IMG/VR virus record: IMGVR_UViG_3300030385_002049
Span: 1-50,523 of that record
Source: a virus
Length of the DNA: 50,523 nucleotides
Strand: one strand, 5' to 3'
Positions 7,412-50,523 of this stretch are shown here, piece by piece (the stretch's first letter is position 1; the number at the start of each line of letters is the position of its first letter). The translations under genes were made by a program, and so were the position numbers. Under the pieces are notes generated by a model. That model was not told where the DNA came from, did no database searches, and saw nothing but the letters and a program-made list of their open reading frames with translations.

Positions 7412-10400
7412 ATGGCTTTGTCTCCAGAGGAACTACAAGCACACTTCGATTCACTAAACGCAGGAAACGCCCCTCCAGAAGTCCCTCCGGACGCTGCTCT
7501 AGACATCGTAACACCTGAAAATACTTCGTCTTTGTCTCCAGACGAACTACAAGCATTCTTCGATTCACTAAACGCAGACACAGACACAGACACAGACACA
7601 GACACAGACACAGACACAGACACAGTCACAGACACAGAAGAGAGAGGCGCGTTTGACGACTTGGGTAAAGCTTTCAAATCTGGAATAGATCAACAGTTTG
7701 AACAAGTTGCTGAAGGGCTAGAATTCTTTGGAGCAGAAGGCGTAAGCGACTGGCTTGAAGACTTCACGGACGCACCAGAAAATTACGAAAGTGCTACACA
7801 AAAATTTATTGGGCAAAACGACGATATTTGGTTTGATTATGATTGGTCAGAAGGCCCTAGATTTCTTATGGAAGTAGCGGCGCAATTAGTTGGGAATGTA
7901 GCGCTTCGAATAAGCGGTGGCCTCACCGCTGCAGGGACAGCATTTGTTGCATCTGGTGGTAATCCTCTAGCCGCAGCTACTGCGGGTGCGGCTGGGGCCT
8001 TTCTTACTCCAGCTGTGTTTAATGCTGTTCGAGTAATAGGATCAACTATGCCCGATCGATTAGAAAGAGACGGTCGTGCGGGGCAAGATCCAACATGGGA
8101 GGATTGGATGGTTGTAGGTACAACGGCAGGAGTATCAGGAATATTGGAATCTGTTGGAGTAAAGAATCTTGGAAAATTAAATAAACTTTATAATTCGTGG
8201 CTAAAACGCACGGCAATGTCGGCAGGACGAGAAGGAGGAACTGAATTTGCACAATCAATTGTTGAAGAAACGGGCGCAGCAATAGGCACAGAAAAAGGAT
8301 TTAGAAGTTCTCAACAAATTATTGAAACCGCAGTGGCGGAAGGAGGAGCTGGAGCAGCGGCTGGAGGCGGTTTTCAAGGTATTGTAGAAGCGAGTGCGGC
8401 TGGGGCACAGGCAATAATAGGGCCACCAAAAGCAGTTCCTACAACTAACGAACCTGATCCTAATTGGAGAGAAAACACACAAGTAATTGTAGACGAAGAA
8501 GTACAAACAAAACTTCAAGAAATAAACGACAAGAGCCCGACTCCATTAAAAGAAATGAGCCCAGCGGACTTAGCGGAAGTAATCAAGTCTATTGGGCACA
8601 ACTATTCGGTTCTCCCCGGAGAAAAAAAAGAAAGTGTCTATGCCAAATTAGTTGGTTTTATAGAACAAGATGCAAAAATGGAACAAGCATTAATCCAAGC
8701 TAAAAAAGATGTTTTATCTTATGTTGACGACTCTAGACTTCTTAGAGAGGAAAGAGAAAAATTAGACAATATGTCTCCTGAAGAATACGCAGACTACATA
8801 AAACAACAATACGGACCGGAAGCTACTCCAGGGCAATACTCTAAAACGCGGGTGGCACGAATTAACGCAGACACACAAGTAGAGTATTTAAAAACTACAC
8901 CGATTTATAATCTTGGAGCTGCAGGGAGGACAGAATATGAAGCACAATTAAAAGAAAAGTTTTCTCAAAAAGAATTATTTAATTTTGTTCAACAAGTTGG
9001 TTTTAGGGACAGCCCAGAAAATATCAGCATAAATCCTAAAACAGGAAAAAATAAATTAGCTCGAATATTAGTCGAAAATATGGCTAGTGGAGAATTGCAA
9101 AGAGAACGATTAAAAGACAAGCCTTTACAAGAACACGATTTATTTTGGGAAACTACATACGATAAAGACGGTGGATTAACGCCATCGTCTTTAGAAGACC
9201 AGCAAGGACCAATGTTAGACGCGTTACTTAAAGACGATGGCAATGCGCTATCCGTGCAACTTCTTATAGTAGATCAAAATGTAAAACACAAAGAGAGCAT
9301 GGTAGATCAAGCTAGAAAACGTTCTGTTCGTTTTGAACGAACAGGTATTGTGAACTTAAACAAAAACGCTTCTATAGAAGAAAGAATACAAAGTGGGCGA
9401 GGAGAATTAGTTTTAGCCCCCGATGATGAACAAAATAAACCTGCAAGAGAGTGGTTAAATAAAACACGCGGAGAAACTCCAGCGAACGCACAGAAATATG
9501 CTGTGGGCCAACCATTACGTTCATTTATTCCTGGAAATGCAGTAGTAGCGTCTACATCAATAAGTTTAAGTGCATTGCCGCATTTGAGTCGAGGAAAAGA
9601 TGCTCTTGCAACTACAATGTCATTTATATCAAAACAAATAAGACCTTATGCAGTATTAGGTGTGCCAGGTTCATTGTTAATGGTAGACCAAATTGGAAGA
9701 ACAAAATCTTTTGAAACACAAGCTCTACAGATTGGCGAAGACATTGATAAAGCCATACTTACCAGTAAACAAAAAGGAGAAATTAAAAGTATAAAAGAAG
9801 GAGACGACATACTTCGAGCTTTTTTACAAAAAAAAGGAGGCCAAATAGAGCTAACGAAAGAAGACGAAGCTAATATACAAGAACTTCAAGACGTCTATCG
9901 ACAAGAATTAAACTATCCTGATCCAAGCGGATCAGTACTTGGCATGACTCCAGCTCAATTAGAACACGAAATAGAGATACTTGAGGGGCTAAAACAAGGC
10001 GCACAAAAAAGTGAAATTTCTTTAGCCCAACTTCCTGAATCTATGCGCGATGTAGCTCTTGAAGTTCGCGCAACAATTGATGCGTTAAGCACTCGTCTTA
10101 TAGAAGAATTTAATTTACCCGAAGAAACTAAAGATACAATAAGAAAGGGATTAAATTCTTATGTAACACAGACAATGGAGTTATTTGAAACAGAAAGAGG
10201 ATATAACCCATTATTCGCTTCAAGGGCAATATTTAAAAAAAGTGACGAGGGAAAAGCAGCTCGAAAATTAATCGACGCTGCAGTTACTGAATTAATGGCA
10301 TTAAACAGAGGAGATCCTCGGTTTAATGAAAAAAAAGCAAGAACGATAGTACACGGCGTACTTTCAAGCAGAACTGCTTATGCTCAAGCCGCAGATGTGG

Positions 10401-21981: not shown

Positions 21982-23112
21982 ATGAATATAAAGAGACTAT
22001 TGCTGTTAATAAGTCTGGGGATGCTTTTCACCGGAGGATTGCAGGCGGCAGAAGCGCAAACAGGCACAGGCTGTACGAATGGTACAGATAATTGTGAAAA
22101 TAATAATTTAACGACTGTAAATTCCACAACGACGACGAATACCAATACTAATACCAACGCTAATACCAATACTAATACCAACAATAATACCAACGCTAAC
22201 ACCAATGTTAACACCACTACGACAACAGCTACCAATACTGCTAATAATACTAATGTTAACACTAACGCTAACACCAATGTTAACACCACTACGACAACAG
22301 CTACCAATACTGCTAATAATACTAATGTTAACACTAACGCTAACACCAATGTAAATACATCAACAGCGACTAGCACAGCGACTTCAAATAATACGAATAC
22401 CAATGCTAACACCAATGTAAATACGAGTACATCAACCAATACTTCAAATGTTACTCAGGCGGTTACTAATAATACGACATCCAACAACACTAGCAGTAAT
22501 ACATCAACATCTGCTAATACTAATACGAATGTGAATAACAGCACTTCAGAGTCCAATGTTACAACGAATAATCAGAACACAAATAACAATAATATAAACG
22601 CCAATAACACGAACACAAATGTTAACCAATCAAATTCTACCCAAGTTATAGAGCAACGAGTTAAAAGTCCTCCAGCCTCGGCCATAGCACCAAGTATTAT
22701 GAGTTACAGCCAGGACCTTTGCACGACAGGGCGTAGCGGAGCTTTACAAGGGCAATTATTTGGTTTTTCTGGCGGTACTACCGTGCGTGATATGAATTGT
22801 GAAAGGCTTAAACTTAGTAAGTATTTATATGATATGGGAATGAAGGTGGCCTCTGTTAGTTTACTTTGCCAGGATAATCGAGTGTTTCAAGCTATGGAAA
22901 TGGCAGGAACTCCTTGTCCATATAAAGGCAAAATAGGTAAAGAAGCAACAGCAGCATGGGCGTCCAATACAGACGAAAGACCTGATTCAGAAGGGTTGTA
23001 TGATGCGTTTATGAAAAAATGTTGGCTTTCACCTAATAAAAAAGGCGTAAGTAAATCTAAACGTACTTGTAAGAAAGAATGGAAGAAACAAAATGCCACG
23101 CAAGAAGGATAA
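21982..23112 (+). CDS. secreted Asn/Thr-repeat protein with conserved C-terminal domain
   Basis: A 376-residue protein with a clear signal peptide (MNIKRLLLLISLGMLFTGG, probable cleavage after QAAEA). Residues about 35-220 are an almost pure Asn/Thr tract, partly built of 24-residue units. The C-terminal 150 residues form a separate domain with five Cys (LCTTGRSGA, LFGFSGGTTVRD, NCERLKLSKYLYDMGMKVA, AMEMAGTPCP), which I recall from marine phage genomes without a function. The protein should pass the inner membrane. A long Asn/Thr stalk with a folded tip suggests a surface-displayed or periplasmic factor. The end overlaps the next gene by 20 bases, so the two are made together. Confidence 0.7.
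   Translation: MNIKRLLLLISLGMLFTGGLQAAEAQTGTGCTNGTDNCENNNLTTVNSTTTTNTNTNTNANTNTNTNNNTNANTNVNTTTTTATNTANNTNVNTNANTNVNTTTTTATNTANNTNVNTNANTNVNTSTATSTATSNNTNTNANTNVNTSTSTNTSNVTQAVTNNTTSNNTSSNTSTSANTNTNVNNSTSESNVTTNNQNTNNNNINANNTNTNVNQSNSTQVIEQRVKSPPASAIAPSIMSYSQDLCTTGRSGALQGQLFGFSGGTTVRDMNCERLKLSKYLYDMGMKVASVSLLCQDNRVFQAMEMAGTPCPYKGKIGKEATAAWASNTDERPDSEGLYDAFMKKCWLSPNKKGVSKSKRTCKKEWKKQNATQEG
22195..22353 (+). repeat. 72-base tandem repeat in the Asn/Thr tract
   Basis: Two complete units of 72 bases begin at 22195 and 22267, and a third partial unit begins at 22339. Each full unit starts GCTAACACCAATGTTAACA and encodes 24 residues. The period was read from GCTAACACCAATGT at 22195-22208, 22267-22280 and 22339-22352. 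Confidence 0.9.
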
Positions 23113-27377: not shown

Positions 27378-29213
27378 ATGGCTTATACTAAATTACAATT
27401 AAAGCCAGGCATAAATCGAGAAGGAACTGCTTATGACAACGAAGGGGGATGGTTTGACTGTAATTTAATTCGTTTTAGAAACGGACATGTTGAAAAAATG
27501 AGTGGCTGGGAAAAATTAACAACTGAGACTTATTTAGGAACTGCTCGAGCATTACACAATTGGGTTGCTTTAGAAGGTAATAAATATCTAGGATTAGGTA
27601 CTACATGGAAATATTATATAAAAGAAGGTGCCGCTTATAATGATATTACGCCTGTTAGAAAAACCAGCACCAATAGTATCACTTTTTCAGCAACATCTGG
27701 TTCTGCTATTATTACAGCAACGGATTCCAGTCATGGAGCGGTTGTTAATGATTTTGTGACTATAAGTGGTGCTGTTACTTTAAATGGTGTAATTACTGCT
27801 GCCGTTTTAAATACAGAACACCAAATTACTTCTGTTCCATCAGCCAATACTTATACTTTTGTAGCATCGGCGACAGCTAATGGCTCTGATACTGGGAATG
27901 GTGGTTCTGGAGTAGATGGAGTTTATCAAATAAATGTTGGATTAGATGTTTATGTTGAGTCTACAGGTTGGGGTGCAGGACTTTGGAGTGCTGGCACTTG
28001 GGGAAGCCTTACTGCATTAAGTATTACTAATCAATTACGTTTATGGTCGCAAGATAATTTTGGTGAAGATTTAATTATTAACCCAAGAGCAGGGGGCATA
28101 TATCGTTGGGTAGAAGAAAATGCACTAACAACCAGAGCAGTCGCTTTATCAGGAACTTTAGTCCCTACGGTTGGTTTACAAGTTATTACTTCTGAAATAG
28201 ACAGACATTTAATTGTATTAGGTGCTGATCCAATATCAGGCAGTTCTAGAACTGGAACTATAGATCCAATGTTGATTGCATTTTCAGATCAAGAAGATGC
28301 TACAAATTTTGAACCTTTAATATCTAACACAGCAGGTTCTTTACGTTTATCAAGCGGTTCTGTAATTATAGGCGCGGCTAAATCTAGACAAGAAATTATT
28401 ATTTTTACTGATACTTCGATTTATTCTATGCAATTTGTAGGTCCACCTTTTACATTTGCTATAAATTTGGTGAATGAGTCTACTGGTTTAATAGGCCCTA
28501 AAGCTGCAATTACTGCTTCTGATGGGATTTATTTTATGAGTTATGGTAATTTTTATGTTTACAATGCAACCGTAAACAAATTGCCGTGTAGCGTACAAAA
28601 TTATGTTTTTTCTGATTTTAACAATGGACAAGCTTGGAAAGTACATGGGTTTACTAATAGTGAAAATAATGAAGTAGGTTGGTTTTATTGTTCTTCAGAC
28701 AGCACAGAAATAGATCGTTATGTTATTTATAACACTTTAGAAAAAGTTTGGTATTACGGTCAATTAGAAAGAACGGCTTGGCTAGATTCAGGTGTAGAAA
28801 GTTATCCGCAAGCTGTTAAAGATAATTATTTATACCAACATGAAATAGGTTATAACGATGACGGTAGTGCTATGACTAATGTATATGTAGAATCTAGCGA
28901 TTTTGATATAGGTGATGGCACCCAATTCACTTCTATTTCTTCTGTTATTCCTGATATACGTTTTTTACAAGACGTTAATTCTGGTAGTGTTAATATTGTA
29001 ACTAAAGTAAGAAATTTTCCAGGTGAATCTTTAACCACTAAAGCAACATCAGAAATTAGTTCTTCTACTACAAAAGCCAATATAAGAGCAAGAGGCAGAC
29101 AAGCCGTAGTTCGTATTGAATCAAATGACGACCAATCAGGTATAGGTAATGTGTCATTAGGATGGCGATTAGGTGCTACACGTTTAGATGTAAAAACTGA
29201 TGGCAGAAGATGA
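27378..29213 (+). CDS. tail structural protein, P22 gp10/nozzle-like family (copy B)
   Basis: A 611-residue homologue of the 629-residue protein at 899-2788. Shared blocks run through the whole length: KPGINREGT, NEGGWFDCNLIRFR, ATDSSHGAV, DNFGEDL, GLIGPKAA, NEVGWFY and the C-terminal GWRLGATRLDVKTDGRR (copy A: GWRLGDTRFDVKLDGRR). Copy B uses AGA for many Arg codons where copy A has CGT or CGA, and the two differ at many synonymous sites, so the split is old. It overlaps the small partner gene by 4 bases (ATGA). A tail hub or DNA-retention role is inferred as for copy A. Confidence 0.72.
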   Translation: MAYTKLQLKPGINREGTAYDNEGGWFDCNLIRFRNGHVEKMSGWEKLTTETYLGTARALHNWVALEGNKYLGLGTTWKYYIKEGAAYNDITPVRKTSTNSITFSATSGSAIITATDSSHGAVVNDFVTISGAVTLNGVITAAVLNTEHQITSVPSANTYTFVASATANGSDTGNGGSGVDGVYQINVGLDVYVESTGWGAGLWSAGTWGSLTALSITNQLRLWSQDNFGEDLIINPRAGGIYRWVEENALTTRAVALSGTLVPTVGLQVITSEIDRHLIVLGADPISGSSRTGTIDPMLIAFSDQEDATNFEPLISNTAGSLRLSSGSVIIGAAKSRQEIIIFTDTSIYSMQFVGPPFTFAINLVNESTGLIGPKAAITASDGIYFMSYGNFYVYNATVNKLPCSVQNYVFSDFNNGQAWKVHGFTNSENNEVGWFYCSSDSTEIDRYVIYNTLEKVWYYGQLERTAWLDSGVESYPQAVKDNYLYQHEIGYNDDGSAMTNVYVESSDFDIGDGTQFTSISSVIPDIRFLQDVNSGSVNIVTKVRNFPGESLTTKATSEISSSTTKANIRARGRQAVVRIESNDDQSGIGNVSLGWRLGATRLDVKTDGRR

Positions 29214-45729: not shown

Positions 45730-46752
45730 ATGGCTCGAGGCGCAGTCAGCAACGAAGCGCCTCACCTTATTGGGAAATATAAGATGCACGAACAAAAAGA
45801 TTTTTTTAACAATTTAAGTGAAATAACAATTAATCCAGTCAATAGGTTTGAAAGATACACCAAAGAGCATTGTTGGCAATACGACATAAGACTCAATAAT
45901 TTAAATCAAGATTTAATTACATCAGGGTTAAGCAAAGAAGAGGCACAGTTAATAAAAGTTTCTGATTTTAATTTTAAACAGGTTATGTCAGAAGAAAAAA
46001 ACAAGTGTGCAGAAATTAAACACTTTATTCAAAGACATGAATGGTTGGGAAAGATGCCCATGTCAATTACGCATAGATTTACTGCTAGATGGAAAGGGGT
46101 TTTGGTTGGTGTAATAGTTATGGCAACGCCTAATGCCTTTTCTAATCTTCTTGGGGTTGAATATAAAAATAAAGAAAAATTAATATCCAGAGGTGCTTGT
46201 ATATCTTGGTCGCCAACAAACACAGCTTCATGGTTATTAATGCAATCTATTAAATGGATGGTTAAAAATACTGATTTTAGAATATTTACAGCTTATTCTG
46301 ATCCAGAAGCAAAAGAATTAGGAACCATATACCAGGCTTGTAATTTTTACTATTTAGGACAACGCTTTGGTTCTGTCAAACAATACCTTGATCCAGATAA
46401 TCTTAATAGGGGGTGGTTTGGGGATGTTGGTTTTAATGATAGAAGCCAAATAGTTAGATACGCAAAACAATTAGGTATTGAGTGGCAAAAAGAGTGGTTT
46501 AAATTTGTAGGCAGTAAAAATCAATATCGAAAAATAGATTGGTCAGCTATGCCAGATGAAATTCAAGAGATATTAAAAAACGAAAGGTTACAACATAAAA
46601 AAAGATGTAAAAGCAGAGTTTCAGCAAAGAAACATAAATATGCTTATATAAAAGGTAGTAATAAAAAAGAAACCAAACAGTTAAAGAAATTATTTTTTGA
46701 AACCAATTTAAATTTGGACGTTTTTAATTACCCAAAAGAAAGAGGCGTTTAA
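45730..46752 (+). CDS. Mom-like GNAT-fold DNA modification protein
   Basis: A 340-residue protein. Residues about 186-212 (FTAYSDPEAKELGTIYQ, then ACNFYYLG) carry the hallmark of phage Mu Mom (the Ala-Tyr-x-Asp-Pro, Gly-x-Ile-Tyr-Gln-Ala and Phe-x-Tyr-x-Gly pattern), and ISRGACISWSPTNTASWLL fits the preceding helix-strand unit of the GNAT fold. In Mu, Mom converts adenine to N6-(1-acetamido)- or methylcarbamoyl adenine and protects DNA from restriction. The C-terminal 90 residues are basic and possibly DNA-binding (KKRCKSRVSAKKHK). The start may instead be ATG 45784, because a hairpin covers codons 3-12. The partner could be the GNAT protein at 46965. Confidence 0.62.
   Translation: MARGAVSNEAPHLIGKYKMHEQKDFFNNLSEITINPVNRFERYTKEHCWQYDIRLNNLNQDLITSGLSKEEAQLIKVSDFNFKQVMSEEKNKCAEIKHFIQRHEWLGKMPMSITHRFTARWKGVLVGVIVMATPNAFSNLLGVEYKNKEKLISRGACISWSPTNTASWLLMQSIKWMVKNTDFRIFTAYSDPEAKELGTIYQACNFYYLGQRFGSVKQYLDPDNLNRGWFGDVGFNDRSQIVRYAKQLGIEWQKEWFKFVGSKNQYRKIDWSAMPDEIQEILKNERLQHKKRCKSRVSAKKHKYAYIKGSNKKETKQLKKLFFETNLNLDVFNYPKERGV
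45737..45763 (+). promoter_or_regulatory. 7-base-pair GC-rich hairpin at the start of the Mom-like gene
   Basis: GAGGCGC (45737-45743) pairs with GCGCCTC (45757-45763) around a 13-base loop. It begins 5 bases after the first start codon triplet and ends 20 bases before the alternative ATG 45784. It could hide the ribosome site or start, as a hairpin does in Mu mom mRNA. Confidence 0.5.
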
Positions 46753-46753
46753 T

Positions 46754-46975
46754 ATGTTACAAGCAGACGGATTCGACGAAGCAATTATAGGAATGACTTA
46801 CGATATGGTGGTATCGGAGGACCGTCTCATTTACTCGATTGATAAGTGCATCGAAATATTGGTTAACAGAGACGATATGACGCCAGAAGATGCGCTTGAG
46901 TATTTGGAGTTCAACACACTTTGCGCTTACGTGGGCAAGGATCAACCCGTTTTTTTACGTGAATATGAGGAATAA
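46754..46975 (+). CDS. small acidic protein, conserved phage family of unknown function
   Basis: A 73-residue acidic protein beginning MLQADGFDEAIIGM, with IYSIDKCIEILVNRDDMTP and EDALEYLEFNTLCAYVG. I recognise it as a family that occurs widely in phages, including podoviruses, as an unassigned gene; the two helices around the Cys and the final strand (EYLEFN) are constant. It starts one base after the Mom-like stop and overlaps the GNAT gene by 11 bases. Confidence 0.68.
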   Translation: MLQADGFDEAIIGMTYDMVVSEDRLIYSIDKCIEILVNRDDMTPEDALEYLEFNTLCAYVGKDQPVFLREYEE

Positions 46976-47438
46976 ATTAGAACTCATACCGCTTTCTTTG
47001 AATGAAGCCAATCTTTTTGTTACTAACTTTCATCGCCACAATAAAAAAGTACAAGGCGCTAAGTACAGTTTGGGTGCTTCTTATAACGATCAATTGGTTG
47101 GAGTAGCGATAGTTGGACGACCCGTTGCTCGTAAACTTGACGACGGCTTTACTGTCGAAGTAACGCGAGTGTGTGTATTAGAAGACGCACCTAAGAATAC
47201 GAATTCATTTCTATACGGCAGAGCGTGGCGAATATGGCAACAAATGGGCGGTAAACGTATGGTTACATATACTCTACAGGAAGAATCTGGATCTTCTCTT
47301 AAAGCTGTAGGTTGGAAAATATTGGGAGAAACGGGTGGTTGGAAAGAGGGTAAAGGTTGGCAAACCCGTCCAGGCAGAGAATGGCAACCCGTAGTCGGAC
47401 AGATGAAGTTTCGTTGGGAGGTTCAAATAGAGCAATAA
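46965..47438 (+). CDS. XF1762-family GNAT-like protein
   Basis: A 157-residue protein starting at ATG 46965 inside the end of the previous gene; a longer frame is discarded. Conserved features are NEANLFVTNFHRHNKKVQG, VGVAIVGRPVARKLDDG, EVTRVCVLEDAP, SFLYGRAWRIWQQMGG and TYTLQEESGSSLKAVGW, which match the XF1762 phage protein family. The layout fits an acetyltransferase fold. It lies two genes after the Mom-like protein, and both use GNAT-like folds, so a two-enzyme modification of DNA or protein is possible. No substrate is known. Confidence 0.75.
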   Translation: MRNKLELIPLSLNEANLFVTNFHRHNKKVQGAKYSLGASYNDQLVGVAIVGRPVARKLDDGFTVEVTRVCVLEDAPKNTNSFLYGRAWRIWQQMGGKRMVTYTLQEESGSSLKAVGWKILGETGGWKEGKGWQTRPGREWQPVVGQMKFRWEVQIEQ

Positions 47439-47455: not shown

Positions 47456-47758
47456 ATGGCACATTTAAAAATAGTCAATTTAGAGGAACGCAGACCGAAT
47501 CCTAGTCATACGGAAGGTAAGGAACGCCTGGATAAGTTATTTGAAGATTTTGTTAAACGTGGCGCGCAACCAGAAATGATCGCCGAGATGATTTTAGCGT
47601 ACGGGATCTGCGAAGTATTAAATTACTCAAGGAAACCTGAAAACGGTCTTGATTCGATCAGTCGTTTGCTCTCGGAGAGCTTTAATCTCAATATAGATCG
47701 AAATGAATATTTTGACCCCGAATTGGGGGGTTTTGTCAAGAAGGACGATGATGAATGA
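47456..47758 (+). CDS. small unknown protein (100 residues)
   Basis: ATG 47456 is chosen, as a longer frame from 47357 lies over the GNAT gene. The sequence MAHLKIVNLEERRPNPSHTEGKE is followed by helices (LDKLFEDFVKRGAQPE, IAEMILAYGICEVLNYS) and an acidic tail ending KKDDDE. The first TTTTGTCA of the array at 47731 is inside its last codons. No family recognised, but its composition and helix pattern look like genuine protein. Confidence 0.6.
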   Translation: MAHLKIVNLEERRPNPSHTEGKERLDKLFEDFVKRGAQPEMIAEMILAYGICEVLNYSRKPENGLDSISRLLSESFNLNIDRNEYFDPELGGFVKKDDDE

Positions 47759-48007
47759 CAAAACTATTGGCTTGAAACCCTTTTACTTAGAGGTTTTGGC
47801 GTTTTGTCAGTTTTGTCAGGGTTTGAGGCTTCCTGTAAAACCCTGTATACAAATAGTAGAAATCTAATAGGGGGTATAACTAAATATATGACAAAAGGGG
47901 TGTTTTATATAATATATACTATATATAGAGAGCTAAGAACCTTATTGTTGTTGCCTTTCTTGAAAAAATTAGTTTTGTCAGACTTTTTCTGCAAAACTCT
48001 GACAAAA
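47731..48007. repeat. seven copies of TTTTGTCA in both orientations around an AT-rich core (origin/operator-like array)
   Basis: TTTTGTCA starts at 47731, 47802, 47811 and 47973; its complement TGACAAAA starts at 47756, 47889 and 48000. The 47802 and 47811 copies are tandem, one base apart. Between 47903 and 47931 lies TTATATAATATATACTATAT, an easily melted stretch. Clustered short iterons beside an AT-rich region are typical of replication origins, and also of multi-operator promoters. Apart from short genes there is nothing else in this 259-base gap. Confidence 0.7.
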
Positions 48008-48009
48008 CT
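47971..48009 (+). promoter_or_regulatory. 12-base perfect inverted repeat in the iteron array
   Basis: AGTTTTGTCAGA (47971-47982) pairs with TCTGACAAAACT (47998-48009) across a 15-base loop. It can form a hairpin in RNA or a two-site operator in DNA. TTTTT follows only inside the loop, so it is not a standard terminator. Confidence 0.7.
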
Positions 48010-48017
48010 AAATAAAA

Positions 48018-48176
48018 ATGCCAAAACTAAAAGCCAACATCAGAAAAGAATTAGAACCAGAAATAGTAACATTATTAGAGAGTGAACCCATTGTTAAATT
48101 AGGAAAGGAATTTCCAGGAGCGAGAATACTATATGTCAGCAAAAGATATGACCATACGAAAGTCGGTAACGATTGA
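48018..48176 (+). CDS. small protein preceding the terminase (52 residues)
   Basis: ATG 48018 lies 8 bases after the inverted repeat. The 52 residues begin MPKLKANIRKELEPEIVTLL and continue with EPIVKLGKEFPGARILYVS; the LGKEFPGARILYV part resembles small DNA-binding or adaptor proteins of phages. It overlaps the terminase small subunit gene by 44 bases in another frame. No ribosome site is obvious. A role with the terminase is inferred from position. Confidence 0.45.
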   Translation: MPKLKANIRKELEPEIVTLLESEPIVKLGKEFPGARILYVSKRYDHTKVGND

Positions 48177-48711
48177 TAATACGTTAGAAGAAGATATAGA
48201 AGATATGCCCATTGAATATCTTAACCACGACGAGAAACAACTGACCAAGAAACAACGCTTGTTAGTCTGGAACGCAGTCAACGATCCGCCATTGACGTTT
48301 GCAGAAGCGGCTAAGAAAGCAGGCTACAAGAATCCCGTTGTTGTCGGAAGATTGATGCGTAAGCGAGAAGATAGTCCGTACGCGCATGTTCGTCGGGAAT
48401 ACGAACGCTTGATGTCGGAAGCTAAAAAGAAATTTGAACTCACGCATGAGCGAGCAGTTGAGGATTTGTATAAGCTCAGAGATGATGCGTGGGGTCGGGG
48501 CGCTTTTAACGCGGCGATACAGGCTCAAGGATTGCTGTTAAAGGTCGGGGGATTAATTATAGATCGTCGGGAAGTATTGCATGGGAAGATAGATCAAATG
48601 AGTCGGGAAGAAGTAGAACGAAGATTGCAAGACTTGTTGGGATCCAAGTCGGGTATCACTATAGAAAACAAGTCGGGAAAGAATTTGCTAGAAAGCAAGA
48701 AGTCGGGATAA
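48133..48711 (+). CDS. terminase small subunit (TerS) candidate
   Basis: A 192-residue protein. Residues about 38-65 (KKQRLLVWNAVNDP, TFAEAAKKAGYKNPVVVGRLM) form a helix-turn-helix resembling DNA-binding domains of small terminase subunits. A long charged helical region (YERLMSEAKKKFELTHERA) suits the coiled oligomerisation core, and the C-terminus is short and basic. It would recognise the packaging site and load the large subunit. The gene contains eight GTCGGG copies, a candidate recognition element. No large subunit is found after it; the next genes are small and on the other strand. Confidence 0.65.
   Translation: MSAKDMTIRKSVTIDNTLEEDIEDMPIEYLNHDEKQLTKKQRLLVWNAVNDPPLTFAEAAKKAGYKNPVVVGRLMRKREDSPYAHVRREYERLMSEAKKKFELTHERAVEDLYKLRDDAWGRGAFNAAIQAQGLLLKVGGLIIDRREVLHGKIDQMSREEVERRLQDLLGSKSGITIENKSGKNLLESKKSG
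48392..48708 (+). repeat. eight GTCGGG copies in one orientation (candidate packaging site)
   Basis: GTCGGG starts at 48392, 48494, 48544, 48566, 48602, 48648, 48672 and 48702, all on the plus strand, within 317 bases. Most are followed by A; the last three are preceded by AA. The six-base sequence is GC-rich and rare elsewhere in the window. The phage P22 pac site also lies inside its small terminase gene. Confidence 0.75.
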
Positions 48712-48864
48712 CTTATTCTTGTATAGCGAATCAAAAACAATCCTAGCCTCATCTTCGGAATACATCTTTTCTTTATACTCTCTGCGTTCCTTGTCGTTTA
48801 ATATCTTCCAGGTACGGAAATTAGACTCGTAAGAGTTATTGTTGTTGTAATAAAATTCATACAT
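48688..48864 (-). CDS. small unknown protein (58 residues)
   Basis: ATG 48864 is preceded by AGGAGAAAAATA, so it is preferred over the longer frame from 48885. The protein begins MYEFYYNNNNSYESNFRTW and continues with charged helices (DEARIVFDSLYKNK). Its 3' end overlaps the convergent terminase gene by 24 bases. No family recognised. Confidence 0.6.
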   Translation of the reverse strand: MYEFYYNNNNSYESNFRTWKILNDKERREYKEKMYSEDEARIVFDSLYKNKLSRLLAF

Positions 48865-49084
48865 TATTTTTCTCCTCATCTTCATAATTATTATAAACGT
48901 TAATAGCTATCTTCCAATTATTCTTGTTATAATCACTACGATTATCAGTATCTAATTCAATACCCCAATAAGTCATTTCTGATCCTATATTCTCTAAAGT
49001 ATCAATACAGATAACTGTATCGGGTTTGTAACCTATTTCATCTATAGAGTATTGCAGTTCGTTAATTAGTTCTTGTATTGTCAT
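48857..49084 (-). CDS. small unknown protein (75 residues)
   Basis: Preceded by AGGAGAAGCTG, which lies in the end of the upstream gene. The 75 residues include QELINELQYSIDEIGY and a strand-rich centre with VICIDTLENIGSE, then YWGIELDTDN. The alternation suggests an alpha/beta fold. It overlaps both neighbours (8 and 23 bases). No family recognised. Confidence 0.6.
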   Translation of the reverse strand: MTIQELINELQYSIDEIGYKPDTVICIDTLENIGSEMTYWGIELDTDNRSDYNKNNWKIAINVYNNYEDEEKNNV

Positions 49085-49268
49085 CAGCTTCTCCTACTTC
49101 CTTTCTAAATTCTTCTTCTGACATTAAACCATTATCAATATGATATTCTTCAAGACTTTCTCTTAAATCATCTTGACTATACCCTCTATTAGCTACCCAT
49201 AACAAAGTATCAATAGCTTCATCATAAGTTTCTGCCCAAGCCTTCATCATTTCTCTAGTTATTGTCAT
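49062..49268 (-). CDS. small acidic helical protein (68 residues)
   Basis: Preceded by GAGGTGAAAA. MTITREMMKAWAETYDEA, LLWVANRGYSQDDLRE and LMSEEEFRKEVGEADD are amphipathic helices with many acidic residues. It overlaps the zinc-ribbon gene by 14 bases and the next gene by 23. No family recognised. Confidence 0.6.
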   Translation of the reverse strand: MTITREMMKAWAETYDEAIDTLLWVANRGYSQDDLRESLEEYHIDNGLMSEEEFRKEVGEADDNTRTN

Positions 49269-49401
49269 TTTTCACCTCAAACTCGGTTAATTTAACTTCT
49301 TCACTACACCCCTCACAAACTACTGCGTACCAATCAAGATGATACACTTTAGAGATATGAGAGCATTTAGGACATTCTAATAGGGTTGTTGGTTCAGACA
49401 T
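49255..49401 (-). CDS. tiny zinc-ribbon protein (48 residues)
   Basis: The 48-residue protein has two CxxC knuckles: CPKC at 10-13 and CEGC at 29-32, spaced by 15 residues, a typical zinc ribbon. AGGAGAACGAAG precedes ATG 49401, and its end overlaps the next gene by 14 bases. Such tiny ribbons act as adaptors or nucleic-acid-binding proteins. Phage Mu Com is also a small two-CxxC protein and activates translation of mom; a similar role here would be with the Mom-like gene at 45730, but this rests on size and Cys pattern only. Confidence 0.65.
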   Translation of the reverse strand: MSEPTTLLECPKCSHISKVYHLDWYAVVCEGCSEEVKLTEFEVKNDNN

Positions 49402-49600
49402 CTTCGTTCTCCTGTTCTGCATATTTAAATCTATGCAAGGTTTGTTTTTGTATGGTTAATCTTGTTATGACATTCTCTAAAATACCTTTATCTCTTTTCT
49501 TGTATTTAGAGATAAGTCCGCCTTTTTGAATAACTTGCAAAAAATCTATTGCTATTTCACAGTCACTCTCTGCCTCTCTCGTTGCTCTAAAAATATCCAT
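49394..49600 (-). CDS. small unknown protein (68 residues)
   Basis: ATG 49600 is set by GAGGAGAACGAAA upstream; a longer frame from 49615 is less likely. The protein begins MDIFRATREAESDCE and has AIDFLQVIQKGGLISKYKK followed by basic helices (VITRLTIQKQTLHRF). Its last codons contain AGGAGAAC, the ribosome site of the zinc-ribbon gene. Confidence 0.6.
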   Translation of the reverse strand: MDIFRATREAESDCEIAIDFLQVIQKGGLISKYKKRDKGILENVITRLTIQKQTLHRFKYAEQENEDV

Positions 49601-49775
49601 TTTCGTTCTCCTCATCTATAACTATATGTTGTATGTCATTTGGCGAATGTAAAGTTATATCTACTATCTCTCCATTACCTAAATTTATCTCGGTATCATG
49701 TGCTTCTTCTAACGAATCAACTTCTAATATTTTTTCTCGTTCAACTAATTCATACCAAGTCATTTTAACTTTCAT
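49587..49775 (-). CDS. small acidic protein (62 residues)
   Basis: ATG 49775 after CAGGAGAACGAAG. The protein starts MKVKMTWYELVEREKILEV and contains EAHDTEINLGNGEIVDITLHS, an alternating strand pattern with many acidic residues. The ORF ends ENENGYF, where GAGGAGAACG serves as the site for the next gene. No family recognised. Confidence 0.6.
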   Translation of the reverse strand: MKVKMTWYELVEREKILEVDSLEEAHDTEINLGNGEIVDITLHSPNDIQHIVIDEENENGYF

Positions 49776-49977
49776 CTTCGTTCTCCTGTTGTTTAATAAG
49801 TTTGTCTAAGTACCACCTGGCTTTGTATAAATCTTCTAGGCCATTTGGATCTTTTTTACCTTGTCGGATAATATATTTAATAATATTGCCAGAACAAAAA
49901 TCCAGGTTGTATTCCATTATAAAGTCGGTCACTTCTATTTTCTTTCGGTAGTAGTCGGGATTGATGTTATCGTTCAT
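49765..49977 (-). CDS. DUF3310 protein
   Basis: A 70-residue protein with INPDYYRKKIEVTDFIMEY, NLDFCSGNIIKYIIRQGKK and DPNGLEDLYKARWYLDKLI. This is the complete DUF3310 (PF11753) pattern, a family found in many phages near nucleotide metabolism or replication genes; it is thought to be a nucleotide kinase-related domain, but the function is unproven. It overlaps its neighbours by 11 bases each. Confidence 0.85.
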   Translation of the reverse strand: MNDNINPDYYRKKIEVTDFIMEYNLDFCSGNIIKYIIRQGKKDPNGLEDLYKARWYLDKLIKQQENEDES

Positions 49978-50158
49978 CTGTAATCACCTCTAAATCATCA
50001 ATATCTAATCCGTCTGCTAAGTATGTGCAATCTGTTTCTGCTCTGTATGTAATTACTTTTCCGTTATCGTCTTTGAGTTCGTTTCCGTCATCATCAAACT
50101 TAAAAAAAGTTAAATCCCAAACTGCAATATTGTTGTATTCTTTTTTGTTATCGTTCAT
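49967..50158 (-). CDS. small acidic protein (63 residues)
   Basis: ATG 50158 is chosen because GGGAGTCCCGACA lies just upstream; a longer frame from 50206 is less likely. The protein begins MNDNKKEYNNIAVWDL and contains LTFFKFDDDGNELKDDNG, an acidic beta-hairpin, then VITYRAETDCTYLADGL. The first 12 bases of the gene are the same as those of the DUF3310 gene. Confidence 0.6.
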   Translation of the reverse strand: MNDNKKEYNNIAVWDLTFFKFDDDGNELKDDNGKVITYRAETDCTYLADGLDIDDLEVITDER

Positions 50159-50429
50159 TGTCGGGACTCCCTTGTTGGATAAATAAGTGCATTTCAGCAG
50201 TATCATTAAAATTAATATGTTTGGTTACATAAGATGAGTTTTCCCAGTCAATTTCAGAACCACCATGTTCACTTTTAATTATCCTGCCATTTTTATGTTT
50301 CTTAAAAACACGCTCTAATTCTTGATACTCAATAGAGGTTTCTTCAATATCAACCTTCATTCCATATTGTTTTTGAATATAATCGGTCAGAGCTTCTTGT
50401 ACTTCCCATTCATTTATTATTAATTGCAT
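50148..50429 (-). CDS. small unknown protein (93 residues)
   Basis: Preceded by AGGAGTCCCGACA. The protein begins MQLIINEWEVQEALTDYIQ, then GMKVDIEETSIEYQELERVF and a C-terminal HINFNDTAEMHLF. The alpha/beta pattern is regular. It overlaps the next gene by 11 bases. No family recognised. Confidence 0.6.
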   Translation of the reverse strand: MQLIINEWEVQEALTDYIQKQYGMKVDIEETSIEYQELERVFKKHKNGRIIKSEHGGSEIDWENSSYVTKHINFNDTAEMHLFIQQGSPDNER

Positions 50430-50523
50430 TGTCGGGACTCCTGTATTTCTAGTTCAAAACATCTTTCGCCTTCGTCTCCGTTCTCGTCCATAGGTTTAAG
50501 GTTTTTGGGTTCTTTTCTATAAA
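50420..50523 (-). CDS. C-terminal end of a small gene, cut by the window edge
   Basis: An open frame enters from the right edge and stops at TAA 50422-50420. It encodes at least 33 residues, including EPKNLKPMDENGDEGE and ending ESRQCN. The last codons contain AGGAG, the ribosome site of the following gene, as in its neighbours. Too little remains to assign it. Confidence 0.5.
   Translation of the reverse strand, partial: YRKEPKNLKPMDENGDEGERCFELEIQESRQCN

Follow-up and report, generated by a model that had tools for sequence, protein, structure and literature searches.

The small terminase subunit gene (terS) of the marine phage DNA analyzed here (a stretch of 50,523 nucleotides, hereinafter the window) carries eight copies of the hexamer GTCGGG, all in the same orientation, and comparison with related genes provides good support for the conclusion that this motif is maintained by selection at the DNA level. 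Judging from sequence comparisons, the copies most likely mark the start of viral genome packaging: together with the same-strand clusters that, in relatives, continue toward the large subunit gene (terL), they probably represent TerS recognition sites that make up a repeat-based pac zone.

Selection on the bases of the GTCGGG array

GTCGGG occurs 14 times on the two strands of the window, and 11 of these occurrences, all on the plus strand, fall in 48392-50436 (Table 1). An unbiased scan of 6-8-mers returned the motif as the top hexamer for the right-hand end of the window and showed that it is strand-polar, with 11 plus-strand and no minus-strand copies in 47500-50523, compared to two and one, respectively, in the rest of the window; the hexamers that are denser than GTCGGG elsewhere are in-frame coding repeats. 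The initial annotation had described eight GTCGGG of one orientation inside terS of an AT-rich genome, at a density beyond chance. All eight are present on the plus strand in 48392-48707 (the last copy stops at 48707, not at 48708 as originally noted), and the GC content is 38%, that is, the genome is not extremely AT-rich. The density indeed exceeds the chance expectation: when the window terS was shuffled 50,000 times among synonymous codons, the maximum was six GTCGGG. Taken in order, the eight copies lie in frames 1, 1, 0, 1, 1, 2, 2 and 2 and encode RRE, GRG, VG, RRE, SRE and, three times, KSG, so that the "Ser-Gly or Arg-Glu" codons mentioned in that annotation are roughly right; with all three frames used and the peptides varied, the array is not a product of a repeated peptide. 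Codon usage points in the same direction: CGG comprises 3% of the Arg codons elsewhere in the window, and all four CGG codons of terS are within GTCGGG, whereas TCG, which comprises 7% of the Ser codons elsewhere, accounts for 5 of the 10 Ser codons in terS.

A scan of viral contigs yielded 264 relatives, of which the best 80 (73-91% amino acid identity) were used; in each of these 80, the matched gene carries three to eight GTCGGG and has no copy on its complementary strand, with a mean of 5.6 per gene vs 0.79 in codon shuffles (69 distinct genes). In the codon alignment of 68 distinct related genes, the hexamer was retained in 251 of the 279 cases (90%) in which the residues are identical to those in the window, compared to a mean retention of 0.28 at identical residues for 374 other windows of the same alignment; the 68 relatives are non-independent, so these values are counts rather than probabilities, and the background windows share the same relatedness. 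Copy 5 is retained in 55 of the 68 relatives although the residues are identical in only 27. Retention of 90% vs 28% at unchanged amino acids indicates that the DNA itself is under selection. Thus, a comparison that could have uncovered the same protein with GTCGGG unconserved found the motif conserved, and the original suggestion that the bases themselves are selected is borne out by the frames, the codon shuffles, the rare codons and the retention in relatives.

Table 1. Features of the terS region in window coordinates; retention refers to relatives with the same residues as the window.
Feature	Position	Strand	Details
TTTTGTCA/TGACAAAA cluster	47731-48007	both orientations	seven copies, just upstream of terS
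terS coding sequence	48133-48711	+	terminase small subunit, 192 aa; carries the array; assigned by homology, profile and fold
Predicted helix-turn-helix DNA-binding domain	48238-48423	+	residues 36-97; match to SF6 TerS DNA-binding domain (2cmp, 4zc3)
GTCGGG copy 1	48392-48397	+	CGT CGG GAA, RRE; retained in 43 of 54
GTCGGG copy 2	48494-48499	+	GGT CGG GGC, GRG; retained in 22 of 22
GTCGGG copy 3	48544-48549	+	GTC GGG, VG; retained in 64 of 68
GTCGGG copy 4	48566-48571	+	CGT CGG GAA, RRE; retained in 58 of 68
GTCGGG copy 5	48602-48607	+	AGT CGG GAA, SRE; retained in 27 of 27
GTCGGG copy 6	48648-48653	+	AAG TCG GGT, KSG; retained in 9 of 11
GTCGGG copy 7	48672-48677	+	AAG TCG GGA, KSG; retained in 28 of 29
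GTCGGG copy 8	48702-48707	+	AAG TCG GGA, KSG, C-terminus; weak conservation, few relatives aligned
Polar GTCGGG beyond terS	49954-49959	+	within minus-strand gene
Polar GTCGGG beyond terS	50160-50165	+	minus-strand gene, gap between Shine-Dalgarno and ATG (CATTGTCGGGACTCC)
Polar GTCGGG beyond terS	50431-50436	+	minus-strand gene, gap between Shine-Dalgarno and ATG

The terS gene and its product

The assignment of the gene that carries the array as terS is supported by sequence comparison and structure modeling. The predicted protein is 30-34% identical to the annotated TerS of HTVC027P, HTVC023P and DSL-LC04 (tblastn, E down to 8e-10) and produces a weak profile match to the terminase small subunit family PHROG 51 (E=0.001). 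A Pfam search with the protein itself gave no match, and its relatives match Terminase_2 below the cut-off. A sequence search of the PDB returned nothing meaningful for TerS and no match for TerL, and comparison of the DNA of this region to phage records gave no match. The AlphaFold2 model of TerS has a pLDDT of 62 overall and 78-85 across the helix-turn-helix (HTH) region, which superimposes on the DNA-binding domain of SF6 TerS at 1.6-1.7 Å over 54-55 residues (VIA); the Z for this match is 6.8, a value equaled by unrelated helical structures matched to other parts of the model. Because a Foldseek search of structures with the whole model gave no significant match, the predicted SF6-type domain hangs on a domain-covering match of middling Z.

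A small ORF of 52 aa (48018-48176) overlaps the start of terS, and a similar one precedes terS in the related locus L018. Two adjacent Mom-like DNA modification genes are located nearby, at 45730-46752 and 46890-47438.

The motif field between terS and terL and its counterparts in other lineages

The copies inside terS are the beginning of a much longer feature. In relatives, same-strand GTCGGG clusters, often with a spacing of 7 or 12 bp, extend 4-7 kb toward terL; the window stops short of these dense arrays. In a set of 43 loci, GTCGGG is nearly lacking over the 10 kb preceding terS, and nearly all copies between terS and about +7 kb lie on the plus strand and form dense clusters. In G003 (45 kb), there are 18 plus-strand and no minus-strand copies within 19.5-24.7 kb, compared to none and six, respectively, elsewhere, and terL is located at 28.8 kb, that is, at +9.1 kb. 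Clusters in relatives occupy terS itself, the coding tail of a minus-strand gene (12-bp spacing) and an intergenic region ahead of the rightward genes (7-bp spacing). The strand of the motif remains constant across plus-strand genes, minus-strand genes and intergenic regions, which indicates that it acts as DNA rather than as RNA or protein. The field, spanning kilobases, is far wider than known pac sites, and because it runs through the terS-terL interval, the gene-internal copies alone do not constitute the pac site. The interpretation in the initial annotation is partly supported: the link to the terminase that it drew is well supported, but the terS copies to which it was confined are only one part of the field.

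In the window (50160 and 50431) and in L018 (5900-7100), GTCGG(G/A) forms the spacer between the Shine-Dalgarno sequence and ATG of minus-strand genes (CATTGTCGGACTCC); such start-site spacers seem to have been recruited as carriers of the motif.

When 2.9 million viral contigs were scanned for dense arrays of GTCGGG, with no use of protein information, at least 80 loci were obtained. Relatives of TerS or TerL are encoded in 16 of the 80 loci listed, and 12 of these 16 are among the 25 loci with less than 46% GC; many of the high-GC contigs are probably unrelated. The loci listed include some encoding TerS that are 46-51% (L240, L247, L296) or only 27-31% (L253, L278, L304) identical to the window protein, and in all six, the array lies downstream from terS, in the orientation of the gene; co-oriented GTCGGG is also present in the genome contig L357 (TerS 51% identical). 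These distant loci contain few or no copies within terS, which limits the gene-internal array to the 72-91% clade, and the presence of GTCGGG along with TerS that are 27-31% identical (L278, L304) indicates that the motif is not strictly tied to TerS identity. Among the GTCGGG-type TerS examined, Lys62, which precedes the 'AG/SG' turn of the HTH, is common to L278, L304, L240, L247 and L296 but not L253, and in the alignment, the TerS of the HTVC027P clade have Asp at this position, which makes it a candidate specificity residue.

The HTVC023P-type pelagiphages (HTVC027P and 023Pt_psg01, hereinafter psg01) and DSL-LC04 encode homologous TerL, portal and DNA polymerase and also have terS several kilobases away from terL. 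Compared to HTVC023P, HTVC027P, psg01 and DSL-LC04, G003 shows 56-61% identity in TerL and 51-55% in DNA polymerase but 20-34% in TerS; Pag-Yong1 was left out of the comparison because the available stretch has no annotated terS. Like the window lineage, the HTVC027P lineage (TerL about 60% identical, TerS about 29%) has polar short arrays in the terS-terL interval, but with a different motif: HTVC027P contains 25 GCTTG, mostly with 7-bp spacing, on the terL strand between terS and terL (16.5-18.9 kb), no such array inside terS, and few GCTTG on the same strand elsewhere. Equivalent GCTTG/CAAGC arrays are present in 38 HTVC027P-related loci; CAAGC is the top cluster in L360 and L365 (TerS 32% identical to that of the window), and L280, with TerS 54-56% identical to the HTVC027P lineage, keeps GCTTG arrays. 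The corresponding repeat in psg01 is GCTCGC, whereas HTVC023P and DSL-LC04 contain weak or ambiguous arrays only. In HTVC027P and psg01, terS is inverted relative to terL, and the arrays are still located in the terS-terL interval. Thus, the motif changes from GTCGGG to GCTTG with the TerS lineage while TerL is conserved. Divergence between the lineages is also seen in the primase and helicase (25-38%), so the covariation with TerS is not unique and, taken alone, is not decisive.

Several other candidate patterns were rejected. The trio of GTCGGG in L280 is probably due to chance because this genome uses GCTTG. The CTAGGAA cluster of HTVC023P is not a clear motif swap given that it lies upstream of terS, at the place occupied here by the TTTTGTCA element. 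Whole-genome counts hint that the polar orientation of the motif is avoided in G003 (4 GTCGG vs 10.9 expected) and HTVC027P (6 GCTTG vs 11.7 expected), but no such avoidance is present in the window.

Packaging and alternative roles of the repeats

The packaging reading draws on the copies themselves, their strand polarity, the selection on DNA, the confinement to the interval from terS to terL and the swap that accompanies a different TerS. Under this reading, GTCGGG would be the DNA recognition element of the phage's own small terminase, and the same-direction copies that start inside terS and continue in clusters toward terL would form a packaging-initiation zone. A TerS ring, with its multiple HTH domains, would assemble on the repeats and bring TerL to this zone of the concatemer, setting the direction of packaging toward terL and the head genes; on this account, the repeats would be read by TerS, TerL would cut in this zone, and packaging would be by the headful mechanism. 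Reading of many weak sites by a ring would fit phage P1 pac and the weak preference of SF6 TerS alike.

The closest known case is P1, where pac lies inside pacA and includes seven hexamers that have been shown to matter for packaging, with synonymous changes in the hexamers cutting the titre about 9-fold (PMC10028697). As with the eight GTCGGG here, short hexamers lie within the small-terminase gene, in coding sequence selected at the DNA level. The differences are that the P1 hexamers (TGATCA/G) include the Dam site GATC, which GTCGGG lacks, and that P1 pac is a single 161-bp site, whereas the array described here is strictly polar, extends in clusters over 4-7 kb in relatives and is found also outside terS. 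In SPP1 and SF6, pac includes direct repeats at promoters and at the start of the small-terminase gene, and the isolated DNA-binding domain of SF6 TerS shows little specificity for its pac repeats (PMC4737164). The SPP1/SF6 G1P protein has an HTH DNA-binding domain, and the predicted fold of the window TerS is alike, but the SPP1 boxes are three different sets of short repeats near the gene start, with no hexamer field toward terL. Repeat-based pac overlapping terS is of a known kind, whereas a polar field that extends over several kilobases and consists of lineage-specific repeats appears to be new: no earlier report of such a motif, or of a pac or terminase-gene repeat array in this group, was found in the open-access papers searched, and such repeats are not mentioned in the main text of a paper that covers 80 HTVC023P-type genomes.

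It is possible, and we put it forward tentatively, that the packaging address in these phages takes the form of a field and not of a single site, that is, a lineage-specific polar repeat spread over 4-7 kb from within terS toward terL and swapped wholesale with TerS while TerL stays similar, such that each lineage would package only its own concatemers during co-infection with relatives. How small terminases choose their own genome is still poorly understood; a conserved polar motif next to its candidate reader would be a direct evolutionary readout of packaging recognition, and the natural replacement of one repeat by another (GTCGGG, GCTTG and others) among marine phage relatives, including pelagiphages, opens the DNA code of packaging to testing and could permit packaging zones of uncultured phages to be predicted from their sequences alone.

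As the main alternative, a replication origin, the GTCGGG copies could be iterons for a phage replication initiator, with the AT-rich stretches between clusters serving as unwinding elements. In several relatives, two clusters indeed flank 71-78 bp of DNA that is 74-86% AT, and the divergence of primase and helicase parallels that of TerS; however, in other subclades, the gaps are short (26-35 bp) and not AT-rich. A search for the IHF consensus between GTCGGG clusters found none. The replication genes identified in the window lie elsewhere, at 13-21 kb and 39-45 kb, and the GC skew shows no clear origin signal in this region, only gene-orientation effects. We consider an origin unlikely because the field is confined to the terS-terL interval, partly within terS itself, and because the clearest iteron-like candidate, and the better one for an origin or operator, is the TTTTGTCA cluster with its copies in both orientations upstream of terS. 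In 12 relatives, 7-10 copies of TTTTGTCA/TGACAAAA occupy nearly fixed positions (about -440 to -110 of terS); more distant lineages have 0-2 TTTTGTCA copies there, some with other repeats in that place. This cluster is possibly an operator or origin, separate from the polar GTCGGG array.

A set of scattered operators or stoperator-like sites, bound by a repressor or another transcription factor of the phage, would account for the GTCGGG found at gene starts between the Shine-Dalgarno sequence and ATG. This role is quite improbable, however, considering that the strand of the motif is independent of the direction of transcription, the densest coding copies are deep within terS, and there is almost no GTCGGG elsewhere in the genome.

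Phage T7 has short arrays with 7-bp spacing near its packaging ends, adjoining the terminal repeat. The similar spacing here raises the question of whether the repeats instead accompany fixed ends, with direct terminal repeats as in T7 or with a cos-type site, and not a headful pac. The left ends of 10 of 49 contigs (group A) do fall at -22 to -295 of terS, overlapping the TTTTGTCA cluster, but the right ends scatter over 4.5 kb with no sharp position; the left ends, somewhat clustered near terS, may be assembly breaks or physical ends. In addition, no terminal repeat was identified, and we regard fixed ends as highly improbable. Unlike those of T7, the array reaches into terS.

Finally, a protein-level cause, namely, that an Arg/Ser-Gly-rich sequence and codon habit yield GTCGGG by chance, could be entertained for the three KSG copies in the variable C-terminal tail but is hardly credible for the array and is refuted for most copies by the three frames, the codon shuffles, the rare codons, the 90% retention at the same residues, and the copies that are intergenic or, in other genes, located on the non-coding strand.

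Apart from the terS region, the window contains a CAGACA tandem repeat (10.7 units, 7575-7638) in an ORF of 1884 aa, 72-bp tandem repeats (22138-22424) in the ORF at 21982-23112, and two paralogs of the virion structural family PHROG 3287 (899-2788 and 27378-29213).
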